From Mariprofundus ferrinatatus (GTDB lineage: Bacteria > Pseudomonadota > Zetaproteobacteria > Mariprofundales > Mariprofundaceae), in the NCBI RefSeq assembly GCF_002795825.1, contig NZ_CP018800.1, positions 248,001 through 312,000 on the forward strand: 64,000 bases of DNA, in the 5' to 3' direction. This document shows, one piece after another, positions 19,094 to 46,641 of this stretch. The notes beneath the pieces are model-generated. The model was not told the origin of the DNA and ran no database searches. It worked only from the letters and a program-made list of their open reading frames with translations. Position 1 is the stretch's first letter; each line of letters starts with the position of its first letter. Position numbers and translations under genes: made by a program.

Positions 19094-21316
19094 ATGATTT
19101 CTCCCGACTATTTTGACTCCCGCTGGAGTTGGTACCGCCCCGTTCTGAACCGACAGGAGCAACCGAGAAACCTGTGCACTGTAGAGGTGCGCAGGCTGCC
19201 GATCCGGTTCACCACTTCTAAGGGCGGCGAATATATTCCGTTTGCTGTTCAGGCAGATGTCGATAAGGCGTTAACGGTGTCCCTGCGCAGGCTGCAGGAT
19301 TATGCCATCCGTTACATGGTTAAGGGTGAAAAGGTCTCCGCACATACATTGCCGCAGATGAACGATCGGGTGCGGGCCATGGTGAGCTACCTGCGCAAAC
19401 AGAATCCGCACCTTTCGCGCGATATGCTGCACCACTGGTGTGCCGAATCGCAGGGGGCAGCAGCGCTGCTTAATATTTGTGAGGTGTTGTGGGAACAGGG
19501 GTGGAAGCAGGATCAGGCTGATTCGGCGCCATGGGTGCCTGCTGTCAATGTACTGCTGCTCAGGCTGATCAGAACGGCTATTGCCAAGCTCTCCGGCGAG
19601 GAGAGTGCAACCGTCAATCATGTCATGCTTTGTGTCGTTGGTGGCCTCTACAACTGGGCATTGCAGGGGTTTCTCAAGCGCTACCTTGAGGGTGTCGTAG
19701 AGATTGCCCGTATTCCCAATTGTGAGGCAATGGTGCTGCCGGTGACTCCGATGGTGTTTATGCATCATCAGCCTGATTCAACACTGCTGGCGGACGATAG
19801 CCGAATTATTCGCGCCTATGGCCTTGAGCCCGAGATCGTCCCGCAGATGCGTTATCTGATCGGCAAAGTGGGGAACAGCAATGAGGGGGGGATGCTTGCC
19901 CTGCTGGCCAAGGACAGGATGGGGGCGCATCTGTTGCGCCGTAGCTGGGCAAGGCTGTCGCTCTGGAAGCTGGCCTTGAAGACCGGATATGGGGGCTGGA
20001 TGCGCTGGGTGCTGGATGCCAAGCGGCTGGATCAGCTTCTGGCCGGGCAGGTAAGGCTGGACTCAATGGCGATGGAAAACCTGCATGCCAATAGTGATGA
20101 GGCTATAGCCGTTTGGCTGCAAGCACAGATGCAGGGGGGAAGGAGTGCAAAAGCTGCGGGAGAGCCGTGGCTGCAGGATAAAATCACACTGGTTGCTTTC
20201 AGGGTATTTGATGAGGATGTTCGGGTTGAGATTGCCCGCCGTGAAGCTGAATGCTGCTGGCTCGATCGCAAAAGTGAAATGGGTACCTCAGGCCGACTGC
20301 AAACCGGGCTTGTCGGCATCAGTGAGCTGCGTGGCCAGGGTGGCTTGCGCGGTGGTCGCGATTCCGAAAGTGAAAAGCGCCTTGAGCAGGCCTGGCTGGA
20401 CGGCGAACTGGTTCTGGTGCAGTCCGATGCCGGCAAGATGCTGCACAGCGGCAAGTCCATGGCGCTGCACCATGGCTGCATGCGGGTGGAGTGGTCAGAT
20501 TATCTGGCTCATATCTATACGCTGAGCGTTTCCGATGCCGCACAGTTTCTAAGTGACCGTTTTCTGCCGGCAATTTTCGAGGCCGTGGAATCCAGGGGGA
20601 ACCTTTTTCTCGATGCATGCTCCGGTTCGGGGTGCATGCTGCGCGGTTCAGTAGTCGAACTCACCGAGGCGGCACTCTTCCTGCGAGAGCGTTTTCGGCA
20701 GCTCTATCTGGAGGTGACCGGACAGCAGGATGGCAAGGCTGAGGTGTTGAACATTCCTCCAGTGTCAATGTGCATGGATTTGACCGGCGAGTGGATATTC
20801 GGTGAGCGTCAGCATGCTAAGATGGGCGAGCATCGCATCGCCTTTTCTCTGGCGGTGTCGCAGGTGGATGCCGGCATTTCCCGTGATACAGGTATAGCAC
20901 GAATGATCAATGCGGGCGTCAGGGAGATGGGTAAAAAATCGCTTGGTAGCGTTAACGTTGAGAAGTTTTATATCAGCAGCGACGAGGCGGTACAGGTTAT
21001 CCATAATGCAGGTATTGCACTTACCGCATCTGCACTCAAAGAGTTGACGAAAATGCTGGCTGGAAGTGCGCATATCCATGAATATCGCCGTTCCGTCATG
21101 CAGGTCAGAGGCGTGCTTGACGACTACCGGCTTCCTCCGGCAGGGCTTGAAATGGTTGTTATTCGCCGTCATGGCGAAGAAGGCAAATGCCCCTGGTTGC
21201 TGGTGAAGGTCGGTAAGCCGAATCTTGCCGGCGTCGATGTCGAGGTATACGAGCTTCTCGATGAATATTCTGATGCCGCGCAAAATATCGTCGCGCTTGG
21301 CCTGAAGAGCTGGTGA
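19094..21316 (+). CDS. Unrecognised 740-residue protein with a possible degenerate cyclase-like domain
   Basis: A large soluble protein with no family I recognise. No signal peptide or convincing membrane segment is visible. The central part (about 270-345) is Trp- and Leu-rich and helical (RRSWARLSLWKLALKTGYGGW). Residues about 465-655 recall class III nucleotide cyclases: a helix FLSDRFLPAIFEAVESRG, then NLFLDACSGSGCML where cyclases have a G-D-G turn, a helix LTEAALFLRERFRQLY, and VSMCMDLTGEWIFGE. The catalytic aspartates are not evident, so it would be inactive if the resemblance holds. It ends with a GTGA overlap with tilS, suggesting co-expression. Composition resembles its neighbours, so recent transfer is not indicated. 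Confidence 0.75.
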   Translation: MISPDYFDSRWSWYRPVLNRQEQPRNLCTVEVRRLPIRFTTSKGGEYIPFAVQADVDKALTVSLRRLQDYAIRYMVKGEKVSAHTLPQMNDRVRAMVSYLRKQNPHLSRDMLHHWCAESQGAAALLNICEVLWEQGWKQDQADSAPWVPAVNVLLLRLIRTAIAKLSGEESATVNHVMLCVVGGLYNWALQGFLKRYLEGVVEIARIPNCEAMVLPVTPMVFMHHQPDSTLLADDSRIIRAYGLEPEIVPQMRYLIGKVGNSNEGGMLALLAKDRMGAHLLRRSWARLSLWKLALKTGYGGWMRWVLDAKRLDQLLAGQVRLDSMAMENLHANSDEAIAVWLQAQMQGGRSAKAAGEPWLQDKITLVAFRVFDEDVRVEIARREAECCWLDRKSEMGTSGRLQTGLVGISELRGQGGLRGGRDSESEKRLEQAWLDGELVLVQSDAGKMLHSGKSMALHHGCMRVEWSDYLAHIYTLSVSDAAQFLSDRFLPAIFEAVESRGNLFLDACSGSGCMLRGSVVELTEAALFLRERFRQLYLEVTGQQDGKAEVLNIPPVSMCMDLTGEWIFGERQHAKMGEHRIAFSLAVSQVDAGISRDTGIARMINAGVREMGKKSLGSVNVEKFYISSDEAVQVIHNAGIALTASALKELTKMLAGSAHIHEYRRSVMQVRGVLDDYRLPPAGLEMVVIRRHGEEGKCPWLLVKVGKPNLAGVDVEVYELLDEYSDAAQNIVALGLKSW

Positions 21317-22320
21317 AGGTGAAGTTCGGGAGCGCTGCCCGCTTTGCCGGTTGGCTAAATCATGCGGCGGTTCCGGAACTGCCGCATGAGATTGCAGTCG
21401 GCTGGTCAGGAGGGGCCGACTCGACAGCGTTGCTGCTGGCTCTGAAAGAGGCCGGGCATGCCGTTTCTGCCTGGCATGTGGATCACGGCTGGCGGGAATC
21501 TTCCCGGCAGGAGTGTGAAATGCTTGCAGAGAGAGCAAACAGCTGGGGTATTGCGTTTTATAGTTCCCGCCTGGATGCCGCTGATGAATCGAACCGCGAG
21601 GCAGTGGCCCGACGTGGCAGATTTGACCGTTTCCTCTCATGGAGCAGGGAGCTCGGCATCTCGACACTCTGTCTTGCGCATCAGCTTGATGATCAGGCAG
21701 AAACGGTCTGTATGCGCCTGTTGCAGGGGGCGGGGGCGGGTGGCTGTCGCGGCATGCGGCGGGAGCGGAACTATTACGGACTGAGAGTTGTAAGGCCTCT
21801 GCTGCATGTTCCGGGTATCGAGTTGCGCACTGTTTTAAGAGAGGCGGGCGTGGAGTGGTTTGAGGATCCAAGCAACGAAGACCTGTCAATCTGGAGGAAT
21901 CGTATCCGGCAGCGGCTGTTCCCTCAGATCGCGGAGAGCGGCATTAAGCCGGATCAGCTGTTTATGCGCTGGCAGCGGCAGGCGGAAAGGCTGGCCATAC
22001 AGCTTGATAAGGGTGCCGACGCAGTGCTGAATGGTGGCAGCTCCGGCATGGACGTTAGAAGAGGTAGAGAGGTTATTCTGCCATGGCGGCAGTGGAGCGA
22101 CTGCCTGCCGGCGGTTCGTGCCAGAGTGCTGCAGCGAATGATGTCGTCACTGCTTGGTGAGGGTGTCACGCCCGGGCGCAGGCACATTGTCATGGTGGAG
22201 CAGTGGACGTTGCGCGACGGGCGCGGAGGGCTCGATCTCTCCGGTTGCAGGCTGCAACGAAGGCAGGGGGGGTTGCATCTGCTGCCGGCAACGTCAGTTT
22301 GTGCCGGCAACTTGAGGTGA
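21313..22320 (+). CDS. tilS: tRNA(Ile)-lysidine synthase
   Basis: Modifies the wobble cytidine of tRNA-Ile(CAU) to lysidine so that it reads AUA. 335 residues, with the PP-loop SGGADSTALLLAL at about residue 31, HVDHGWR, the AHQLDDQAETVCMRLLQGAG segment and EDPSNED followed by NRIRQRLFP. The start is GTG at 21313, overlapping the stop of the preceding gene by four bases. In many genomes tilS precedes ftsH, as here. The C-terminal domain is short compared with E. coli TilS. Confidence 0.94.
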   Translation: MKVKFGSAARFAGWLNHAAVPELPHEIAVGWSGGADSTALLLALKEAGHAVSAWHVDHGWRESSRQECEMLAERANSWGIAFYSSRLDAADESNREAVARRGRFDRFLSWSRELGISTLCLAHQLDDQAETVCMRLLQGAGAGGCRGMRRERNYYGLRVVRPLLHVPGIELRTVLREAGVEWFEDPSNEDLSIWRNRIRQRLFPQIAESGIKPDQLFMRWQRQAERLAIQLDKGADAVLNGGSSGMDVRRGREVILPWRQWSDCLPAVRARVLQRMMSSLLGEGVTPGRRHIVMVEQWTLRDGRGGLDLSGCRLQRRQGGLHLLPATSVCAGNLR

Positions 22321-22356
22321 TGCGACCTCAATGTTTTGAGGGAGTTGTCATTAGGG

Positions 22357-22390
22357 GGTTGAATCCCGATGGCAATAACCCCACATATAT
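22357..22390 (+). promoter_or_regulatory. Sigma-32-like (heat-shock) promoter upstream of ftsH
   Basis: GTTGAAT at 22358-22364, a 14-base spacer, then CCCCACAT at 22379-22386. This resembles the heat-shock consensus CTTGAA with N11-15 and CCCCATNT. FtsH is a heat-shock protease in E. coli. The same bases also form GGGGTT/AACCCC inverted arms, so a hairpin is an alternative reading. Confidence 0.5.
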
Positions 22391-22408
22391 TATGAAATGC
22401 TAATTTTT

Positions 22409-22476
22409 AATCTTCTTTTCATGCAGGGTGGCGACGCTTGCATGAAATCTTTTGAAGATTATCCCGAATCAGGGAT
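22409..22476 (+). promoter_or_regulatory. Structured 5' leader of ftsH (two stem-loops)
   Basis: The arms AATCTTC (22409-22415) and GAAGATT (22454-22460) enclose a nine-base-pair stem TTTCATGCA (22417-22425) with TGCATGAAA (22439-22447). A second hairpin, ATCCC (22461-22465) with GGGAT (22472-22476), ends six bases before the ribosome site AAGGATAGG of ftsH. Such folding could control translation or stability; no known riboswitch family is recognised. Confidence 0.55.
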
Positions 22477-22492
22477 AAAAAGGATAGGTTGA

Positions 22493-24427
22493 ATGAGTAA
22501 GAATCTAATACTGTGGCTGGTAATCGGTGTCACGATGATGAGCCTGTTTAATATGTTCTCGGCACCTATGTCGCGGGCAGACAAGATGGCCTACTCCACC
22601 TTTATTGAGAAGGTGGATGGCGGCATGGTGGAGTCGGCAACAATCAAGGAAAACCAGGTGATCGGCCAGTACCGCGACACCTCTGGCGAAATAAAAAACT
22701 ATGACGTTAACATTCCTGCCAATGATGCCTCGCTTTCCCAGCGCCTGATTGATCAGCATGTCGTTGTAAATGTAAAAGAGAAGGATGAGGTGCCATTCAT
22801 TCTGTCGGTGCTGATCTCTTGGTTCCCTATGCTTCTGCTGATTGCTGTCTGGGTATTCTTCATGCGCCAGATGCAGGGCGGTGGCAAAGGCGGAGCGATG
22901 GGCTTCGGTAAGAGCAAGGCCAAGCTGCTCAACGAGCACACTGCGCGCGTCACTTTTGAAGATGTCGCAGGTTGTGATGAGGCAAAGCAGGAGGTGACCG
23001 AGGTAATCGAGTTCCTGCGTGATCCCTCGAAGTTCACCCGCCTGGGCGGCAAGATTCCCAAAGGCATGCTTCTGGTAGGCCCTCCTGGCACCGGCAAGAC
23101 ACTGCTGGCGCGAGCCATTGCAGGTGAAGCGGAAGTGCCCTTTTTCTCGATCTCCGGTTCCGACTTCGTGGAGATGTTTGTCGGTGTCGGCGCATCCCGT
23201 GTACGTGATATGTTCGAGCAGGCGAAGAAGCATGCGCCCTGCATCATCTTTGTGGATGAGATCGATGCCATGGGTCGCCATCGCGGAGCCGGCATCGGCG
23301 GCGGCAATGACGAGCGTGAGCAGACACTGAACCAGATGCTGGTTGAGATGGATGGTTTCGAGTCTAATGAAGGGGTTATCCTGGTGGCCGCCACCAACCG
23401 CCCTGATGTTCTGGATCCGGCGCTGCTACGCCCTGGCCGTTTTGACCGTCAGGTTGTGGTGCCGCGTCCGGATCTGCTCGGCCGCGATCAGATTCTCAAG
23501 GTGCATATGCGCAAGGTGCCATTGGCATCCGATGTGGATACCAAGGAGCTGGCACGTGGAACGCCTGGCTTCTCGGGAGCTGACCTGGCCAACCTGGTCA
23601 ATGAGGCGGCACTCAATGCTGCCCGTTATGATCGAGACAAGGTGACCCGTGCCGATTTCGAAACAGCCAAAGACAAGGTGATGATGGGTACCGAGCGCCG
23701 CTCTATGCTGATCTCCGATGATCAGAAAGAGACTACAGCCTACCATGAGGCGGGCCATACGCTGGTCGCCAAGTACCTGAAGAATGCCGATCCGGTACAC
23801 AAGGTGAGCATTATTCCGCGTGGTCAGGCACTCGGCATTACCATGCAGATGCCGGAAGAGGATCGCTTTAATCACGACAAGGAGTACCTGCGTGATCAGA
23901 TCTCCATCATGATGGGCGGTCGCCTTGGCGAAGAGCTGGTGCTTGGGCAGATGACCACCGGCGCATCCAACGATTTCGAGCGTGCAACGCAGCTGGCCCG
24001 TAATATGGTGACCCAGTGGGGCATGTCCGATGAGATGGGGCCGATGGTTTACGGAGAGCGTGAGCATGAGCCGTTCCTTGGTCGTGAAATCACCCGTCAG
24101 ACCAATATCTCGGAAGAGACGGCGCGCAAGATCGATATCGTCGTGCGCCAGCTGATCGAGGAAAATTATGATCGTGCCAAGAAGATTCTGGAGGATCACA
24201 TGGATCAGCTGCATCTTCTGGCCAAGGCGCTGATCAAGTATGAGACACTGGATACCACTGATATCGACCGTGTGATGGAGGGCAAGGAGCCTGTTCTGGT
24301 GAGCGGTTCGGAGAAGCCGGCAGGCAAGGGCAAAACGCCGCCGGAAGAGCCGACTGCCAAGGTGGATATCGGTGAATCCGGTAAAGAGAACAAGCCGTCC
24401 GATGGCGAGGCGGGACAGGCGAGCTGA
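22493..24427 (+). CDS. ftsH: ATP-dependent zinc metalloprotease FtsH
   Basis: Membrane-anchored AAA+ protease for quality control of membrane and regulatory proteins. 644 residues: two transmembrane helices (near residues 5-20 and 100-125) around a short periplasmic domain, an AAA domain with Walker A GPPGTGKT at about residue 195, IIFVDEIDA, the second region of homology with [22 protein letters not shown], and the zinc site HEAGH at about residue 416. The tail is Lys/Glu/Gly-rich. AAGGATAGG precedes the start. folP overlaps its stop codon (TGATG), as in E. coli ftsH-folP-glmM. Confidence 0.97.
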
Positions 24428-25315: not shown

Positions 25316-26104
25316 ATGGCTAACTGGCAATTCGGACTCGTAGATGTGCTGGATATTTCAGTGGTTGCCATCGTTGTCTATTTCTTTCTGAGCCTGATTC
25401 GAGGCACGCGCGCCGTTCAGATGCTGATCGGTGTTGCGGTTGTGGTTGTCACCTACCAGCTGGCCCGCACTTTCGGGCTGTTTACGGTCGAATGGATGTT
25501 CGGCCACTTTTTCTCCGCTTTTATGGTGATTCTTGTGGTTCTCTTCCAGCAGGAGATACGTCGTGCCCTGATGCGCGTGGCGGCAAACCCTCTCTCATTT
25601 ACGGGTTCTGCAACGGATGAATCGATTGATTCGCTGGTGGAATCTGCATTTTCGCTGGTTCATCGCGGCTGGGGAGGATTGATCGTGATTGAACGGGAGA
25701 CAGGGTTGCGCCACCTGTTTGAGTCGGGCGTGGAGATGGATGCGCCGCTCAGGCCGGACATCATTCAGGCACTCTTCTGTCCTGATGCCCCGATGCATGA
25801 TGGGGCGGTCATTATGCGCAGGGATGGTAACGGTGGCCGCATTGTTGCCGCTCGTGTGCTGCTTCCTCTTGCTCAGGCCAATGCTGTCCCCGGCGACTTT
25901 GGCACCCGTCACAGGGCTGCAGTCGGGCTTTCTGAAGAGACCGATGCATTGATTGTCGTGGTGTCCGAAGAGAGAGGAGAGGTGCACCTGGTTGAAGGGG
26001 GGCAGATGGGTGCGCCCATGACAAGCATGGAGCTTCGCGAAGCTCTGGGGCAGCTCGCGGTATCATCTGCAAAACCGGCCAAAGGTCCGGCAGGCAATTT
26101 CTGA
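25316..26104 (+). CDS. cdaA: Membrane diadenylate cyclase
   Basis: Makes cyclic di-AMP from two ATP. 262 residues: three N-terminal hydrophobic helices (VVAIVVYFFLSLI, MLIGVAVVVVTYQLA, FFSAFMVILVVLF) followed by a DAC domain with the two conserved motifs, DGAV (about residue 161) and GTRHRAAVGLSE (about residue 195). The intact DGA and RHR motifs predict activity. cdaR and glmM follow with overlapping codons, the arrangement described for Gram-positive c-di-AMP operons. No strong ribosome site is seen, so the start could be slightly different. Confidence 0.93.
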   Translation: MANWQFGLVDVLDISVVAIVVYFFLSLIRGTRAVQMLIGVAVVVVTYQLARTFGLFTVEWMFGHFFSAFMVILVVLFQQEIRRALMRVAANPLSFTGSATDESIDSLVESAFSLVHRGWGGLIVIERETGLRHLFESGVEMDAPLRPDIIQALFCPDAPMHDGAVIMRRDGNGGRIVAARVLLPLAQANAVPGDFGTRHRAAVGLSEETDALIVVVSEERGEVHLVEGGQMGAPMTSMELREALGQLAVSSAKPAKGPAGNF

Positions 26105-46555: not shown

Positions 46556-46609
46556 TTTCAGAATCCGTCATCGCATCCTGACTTATCAGATAACATTCAT
46601 TTGCGTTTA

Positions 46610-46641
46610 ATACTTGACTAAAAGGGTCTGGTTTATAATAT
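46610..46641 (+). promoter_or_regulatory. iscR promoter with an IscR-like operator
   Basis: TTGACT at 46614-46619 and TATAAT at 46634-46639 (spacing 14) or TAATAT at 46636-46641 (spacing 16) form a promoter. The bases from 46610, ATACTTGACT, match the left half of the type 1 IscR site of E. coli; the right half (GGTCTGGTTTAT) is weaker. Autorepression by IscR is therefore likely. Confidence 0.6.

Follow-up and report, generated by a model that had tools for sequence, protein, structure and literature searches.

What controls ftsH in Mariprofundus ferrinatatus, and does that control lie in the DNA upstream of the gene or in the RNA transcribed from it? The window that we analyzed is a stretch of 64,000 nucleotides (G000:C1:248001-312000, G000 being the M. 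ferrinatatus genome itself) on a single contig of a genome of 2.3 Mb. It contains the genes tilS, ftsH, folP, cdaA, and ybbR in this order, the last three on the same strand as ftsH, and the tilS stop codon at 22320 leaves 172 bases upstream of ftsH (Table 1). The closest named relatives of the FtsH protein are Mariprofundaceae and Ghiorsea records. An earlier note had read this interval as a structured leader with a heat-shock-like promoter, in which stem-loops might make FtsH responsive to temperature or to a protein. All of its elements, that is, GTTGAAT-N14-CCCCACAT and both pairs of stem arms, were found in place; the last stem, reported to end about 6 bases before the ribosome site, lies 3 bases from the Shine-Dalgarno (SD) sequence. 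Our preferred and probable reading is that control is exerted at the DNA level, by two promoters, P1 and P2, arranged in series upstream of ftsH. The motifs, their conservation, spacing, and association with genes were computed; the binding of polymerase and activator, the start sites, and the inducing signal are what we infer from them. A terminator-like stem (22312-22331) spans the tilS stop codon, and our scan placed it not above chance expectation. Directly 5' of tilS is a 740-aa reading frame (19094-21316) without a Pfam match at E ≤0.001 or an NCBIfam match at E ≤1.

Table 1. Features of the ftsH upstream region, in window coordinates
Feature	Position	Strand	Remarks
P1 -35, GTTGAAT (sigma-32 type)	22358..22364	+	Identical in G046, G053, and G054 (alignment); pattern statistics
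P1 -10, CCCCACAT (sigma-32 type)	22379..22386	+	N14 from the -35; predicted start site ~22392
P2 tandem activator box: TTAAT (22407-22411), N6, TTCAT (22418-22422)	22407..22422	+	Box in 48/68 class ftsH upstreams; precedes other genes too
Outer arms AATCTTC (22409-22415) / GAAGATT (22454-22460)	22409..22460	+	M. ferrinatatus genome only; broken in G046, G053, and G054
Inner inverted repeat TTTCATGCA (22417-22425) / TGCATGAAA (22439-22447)	22417..22447	+	8-9 pairs kept in three near relatives, 5' arm almost unchanged
P2 -10, GACGCT (xAYxxT)	22433..22438	+	10 bases past the box; spacing kept in relatives; predicted start ~22445
Small hairpin ATCCC (22461-22465), N6, GGGAT (22472-22476)	22461..22476	+	Just 5' of the SD; unit repeated ~2.6 times in G046
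Shine-Dalgarno AAGGATAGG	22480..22488	+	Coordinates from sequence
ftsH, 644 aa	22493..24427	+	TIGR01241, 890 bits (cut-off 600); first gene behind P1 and P2; ATG at 22493

The upstream element, P1, combines a TTGAA -35 with a C-rich -10 at a spacing of 13-16 bases, the arrangement expected of sigma-32 promoters. In the M. ferrinatatus genome, the pattern TTGAA-N13..16-CCCYAYNT gave four matches versus two in the reversed control, and three of the four lay directly 5' of ftsH, htpX, and htpG, the fourth being elsewhere. Applied to the 23 genomes of the genus, a stricter pattern matched 28 times, against 2 matches in the reversed control; 13 of these sites lay before htpX (8), ftsH (3), hsp20 (1), or clpB (1). 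All 28 had loci: 26 were annotated by script, which assigned a gene to 18, and the remaining two (L267 and L268) were read separately. The identities of the heat-shock genes were checked with HMMs for L268, L305, L307, L321, and L313, and were taken from N-terminal sequence or position for the others. The M. ferrinatatus genome also encodes a sigma-32 family protein (NF005143, 283 bits, cut-off 241), which scored below the cut-off of TIGR02392 (281.9 versus 323.1). The heat-shock-like promoter of the earlier note is supported by the genus-wide counts and by this sigma factor; the other half of its reading, RNA control through the large stems, is not supported by the analysis described below.

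P1 is narrowly distributed at ftsH. In an alignment of G000, G046, G053, and G054, GTTGAATC and CCCYA were retained amid diverging flanks; the end of the -10 deviates in G046, and the ftsH site of that genome fails the strict pattern. Only 3 of the 23 genomes of the genus carry the strict pattern at ftsH. We found P1 at this gene in no genomes other than those of M. ferrinatatus and its closest relatives; a similar site, CTTGAAA-N14-CCCTATAG, lies upstream of ftsH in G044, a genome of another genus. In Pseudomonas aeruginosa, RpoH is reported to induce ftsH, htpG, and htpX, along with folP and glmM of the ftsH operon (PMC9866376). Compared with that regulon, the TTGAA -35 is shared, and the pattern described above precedes the first three of these genes in M. 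ferrinatatus as well; however, the -10 here is longer and C-rich (CCCYAYAT versus CnATnT or ccATcT), and the pattern stands at ftsH of few genomes of the genus (PMC9866376). As judged from sequence, P1 is well supported as a heat-shock promoter, and of a kind already known.

The downstream element, P2, reads in full TTmAT-N6-TTCAT, then 10 or 11 bases, then xAYxxT. We scored TTmAT-N6-TTmAT in 68 ftsH upstreams of Zetaproteobacteria (69 minus L158, which has no upstream bases; L181 of G064, which is not an ortholog, was excluded). Of the 68, 48 scored 8.7 or more, a level that 2.1% of shuffles attained, and 39 scored at least 9.7, which 0 of 1360 shuffles did; these class-wide counts are not independent events, because the genomes of one class are related. 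The 48 box-bearing upstreams span 14 of 18 genera; in the genus to which the M. ferrinatatus genome belongs, all 22 usable upstreams, its own included, carry the box. The box was absent from the other 20, among them all 13 of genus g6. At a spacing of 10 or 11 bases, xAYxxT followed the box in 37 of the 48 (3.1 expected), and no upstream had it only at 9, 12, or 13. Outside the class, the box with its -10 was found in 0 of 76 scored ftsH upstreams (79 were scored, and 3 from the class were set aside). Among the papers listed in our literature searches, none concerned promoters or regulators of Zetaproteobacteria, and no paper of the collection searched contained the box in its written form. 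P2 looks like a class-wide activator promoter, apparently undescribed so far, and it looks ancestral to the class.

The -10 of P2 in the M. ferrinatatus genome, GACGCT, is poor. Direct repeats with an 11-base period, 10-11 bases 5' of a -10, are the layout of OmpR/PhoB-type activation, and the two pentamers of P2 show this period, with the second at this distance from the -10. Elsewhere in the window, a second repeat, TTCAT-N6-TTAAT at 46596-46611, has no -10.

The box also precedes other genes. In the M. ferrinatatus genome, the full P2 pattern gave five matches versus one in the reversed control, at ftsH, an EF-hand protein gene, a YceI-like protein gene, a small secreted protein gene, and one probable chance match (L186, judged so by its position). 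The reading frame next downstream of the small secreted protein gene resembles an efflux protein by eye. We also rejected a reading by eye of L184 as a Spy-like protein, for which Pfam gave EF hands. Among related loci, the box was retained with a score of 10 upstream of 7 of the 14 YceI loci examined (L217-L230; L231 and L232 were omitted), and with a score of at least 8.7 upstream of 5 of the 11 EF-hand loci examined (L187-L197; weaker matches were omitted). Across the genus, the full pattern gave 39 matches versus 3 in the reversed control. The 30 of the 39 that had loci were annotated, and 7 of the 30 were without a gene by the rule of the script; targets named by HMM among the 30 include a DEAD-box helicase, NhaA, and an outer-membrane efflux protein. 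Such a spread of one box over unrelated genes looks like a regulon.

The P2 box contains most of the 5' arms of the large hairpin, and the same bases have invited a different reading, in which hairpins in the leader keep the ribosome site covered and are opened by heat or by a protein. The hairpin itself is no accident of composition: its nested 9+7 bp inverted repeat was the sole one of its layout in the window and arose in 0 of 20 first-order Markov simulations, in agreement with the view in the earlier note that such long arms are unlikely by chance. Single 9-bp inverted repeats are common in the window (28 versus a simulated mean of 6.8). The large hairpin in this genome is thus more than chance, which does not by itself speak to its function. 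In favor of a switch, the leader RNA folds better than most shuffles (z = -2.3; 4 of 200 shuffles fold as well), and the SD is mostly paired in the predicted structure (~0.23 unpaired). RNA thermometers such as ROSE and fourU are likewise hairpins in the leaders of heat-shock genes; here, however, the leader matched no Rfam family, and the predicted SD exposure of the P1 transcript was flat between 10 and 50 °C (0.25 to 0.27), with values of 0.24 at 10 °C and 0.38 at 50 °C for the P2 transcript. Nor was there excess SD occlusion among 48 relatives, whose mean exposure was 0.44 versus 0.43 for shuffled leaders, with 22 of the 48 below their own shuffled mean. Covariation, whose absence the earlier note had named as evidence against its reading, was not observed either: the nearest relatives have lost the outer stem, and the inner stem across G000, G046, G053, and G054 shows one G-U change, one lost pair, and no compensating changes, the constancy of its 5' arm being due to the class-wide DNA box to which that arm belongs. 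Transcripts from P1 could fold the large hairpin, whereas those from P2 could not, because their predicted start (~22445) falls inside the 3' arm. The flat predicted exposure, the broken outer stem, and relatives with no excess occlusion led us to reject an RNA thermometer, and we regard control by heat- or protein-opened hairpins as very improbable. The simplest account of the large hairpin is that it results from promoter sequence, and the case illustrates how the box of a promoter can pass for one arm of an RNA hairpin.

It is conceivable, if rather doubtful, that the small hairpin just before the SD is a real leader element affecting translation or mRNA stability while both promoters act as proposed. 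A stem occupies the same place in six genomes (G000, G046, G053, G054, G057, and G049) with its arms altered on both sides (ATCCC/GGGAT, GCCCGT/ACGGGC, and CCCGTT/GACGGG); the G057 and G049 arms were compared by eye, as the automatic alignment does not superpose them. Among G000, G046, G053, and G054, the arms are fixed and the loops variable, and the unit is repeated in G046 and present in two copies in G053 and G054. Yet most relatives are without the stem: only 6 of 24 close upstreams examined reached p 0.05 against shuffles, two of them (L087 and L104) with a stem elsewhere, and the six named genomes ranged from p 0.00 to 0.14. Within a sub-clade, this hairpin may adjust translation or the stability of the mRNA. 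In G046, the ATCCC..GGGAT hairpin of the ftsH leader (L083, 3460-3547) sits in tandem 34-base units, whose copy number varies among near relatives. A remaining alternative is that the heat-shock promoter alone matters, the tandem box being vestigial or acting in the RNA, for example as an anti-SD; UUUAAUCUUCUUU is indeed able to pair with the SD region in the M. ferrinatatus genome. By eye, however, the extended SD complementarity occurs only in G000 and G046 and is absent from G053 and G054, and the box stands upstream of unrelated genes with a -10 at a fixed distance. We judge this alternative improbable.

We return to two promoters in series as the preferred reading, under which P1 (22358-22386) would be read by RNA polymerase carrying the sigma-32 heat-shock factor, with transcription starting at ~22392. 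P2 (22407-22438) would be a promoter of the sigma-70 type without a good -35. Its two pentamers, TTAAT and TTCAT, are 11 bases apart and would flank the -35 position; a putative response regulator with a winged-helix fold, of the OmpR/PhoB type, would occupy them head-to-tail and recruit polymerase to the weak GACGCT, with a start at ~22445. FtsH could then answer to misfolded protein via P1 and, via P2, to an envelope or ion stress common to a small regulon.

Which regulator might occupy the box? The M. ferrinatatus genome encodes four PF00486 regulators, namely a heavy-metal type (L233), a PhoB-like (L234), an RppA/PmrA-like (L235), and a CpxR-like (L236) protein. Upstream of the genes for these proteins, no box is convincing, which leaves none of the four tied to the P2 box. 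The regulator of the box need not be among them. L236 and L233 remain candidates despite the lack of a convincing box before their own genes; the near-universal L233-type regulator is present also in genomes without the ftsH box. PhoB is unlikely. The Pho box that it recognizes, TGTCA-N6-TGTCA, shares with P2 the direct repeats, the 11-base period, and the position before a -10, but PhoB here most likely uses TGTCA-N6-TGTCA and not TTCAT, because Pho-box sequences adjoin porin-like genes by phoBR elsewhere in the genome. These canonical repeats lie in L274 (G000:C1:655000-672000), next to porin-like reading frames and phoBR, and probably mark the Pho regulon.

Similar in layout is the BqsR operator of P. 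aeruginosa, given in PMC4682146 as TTAAG-N6-TTAAG, with the downstream pentamer on the -35 region at the bqs promoter. Both operators have two pentamers 6 bases apart and an 11-base period, but the pentamer here is TTmAT/TTCAT, not the TTAAG of BqsR (PMC4682146). Several box-bearing genomes are, moreover, without a close copy of the nearest RppA/PmrA-like regulator, L235, which is unlikely as the universal factor of the box because G053, G054, G049, and G050 keep the box with only ~45% matches to it.

On balance, we lean toward the view that a stress regulon not described before is common to the Zetaproteobacteria, with TTmAT-N6-TTCAT-N10/11-xAYxxT as its mark and one two-component system of the OmpR/PhoB family in charge. 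The regulon would join the FtsH protease with a DEAD-box RNA helicase, NhaA, YceI, EF-hand, and efflux proteins, FtsH in one clade being also under a separate heat-shock promoter. If this is true, the turnover of membrane proteins in iron oxidizers would be linked to a signal concerning the envelope, cations, or metals. With an operator that is short, class-wide, and clear in its targets, both the regulator and its signal are directly testable in cultivable iron oxidizers. Downstream of ftsH-folP, the window also holds a gene for a CdaA-like diadenylate cyclase (25316-26104; 179.6 bits versus a model cut-off of 188.8), followed by ybbR.
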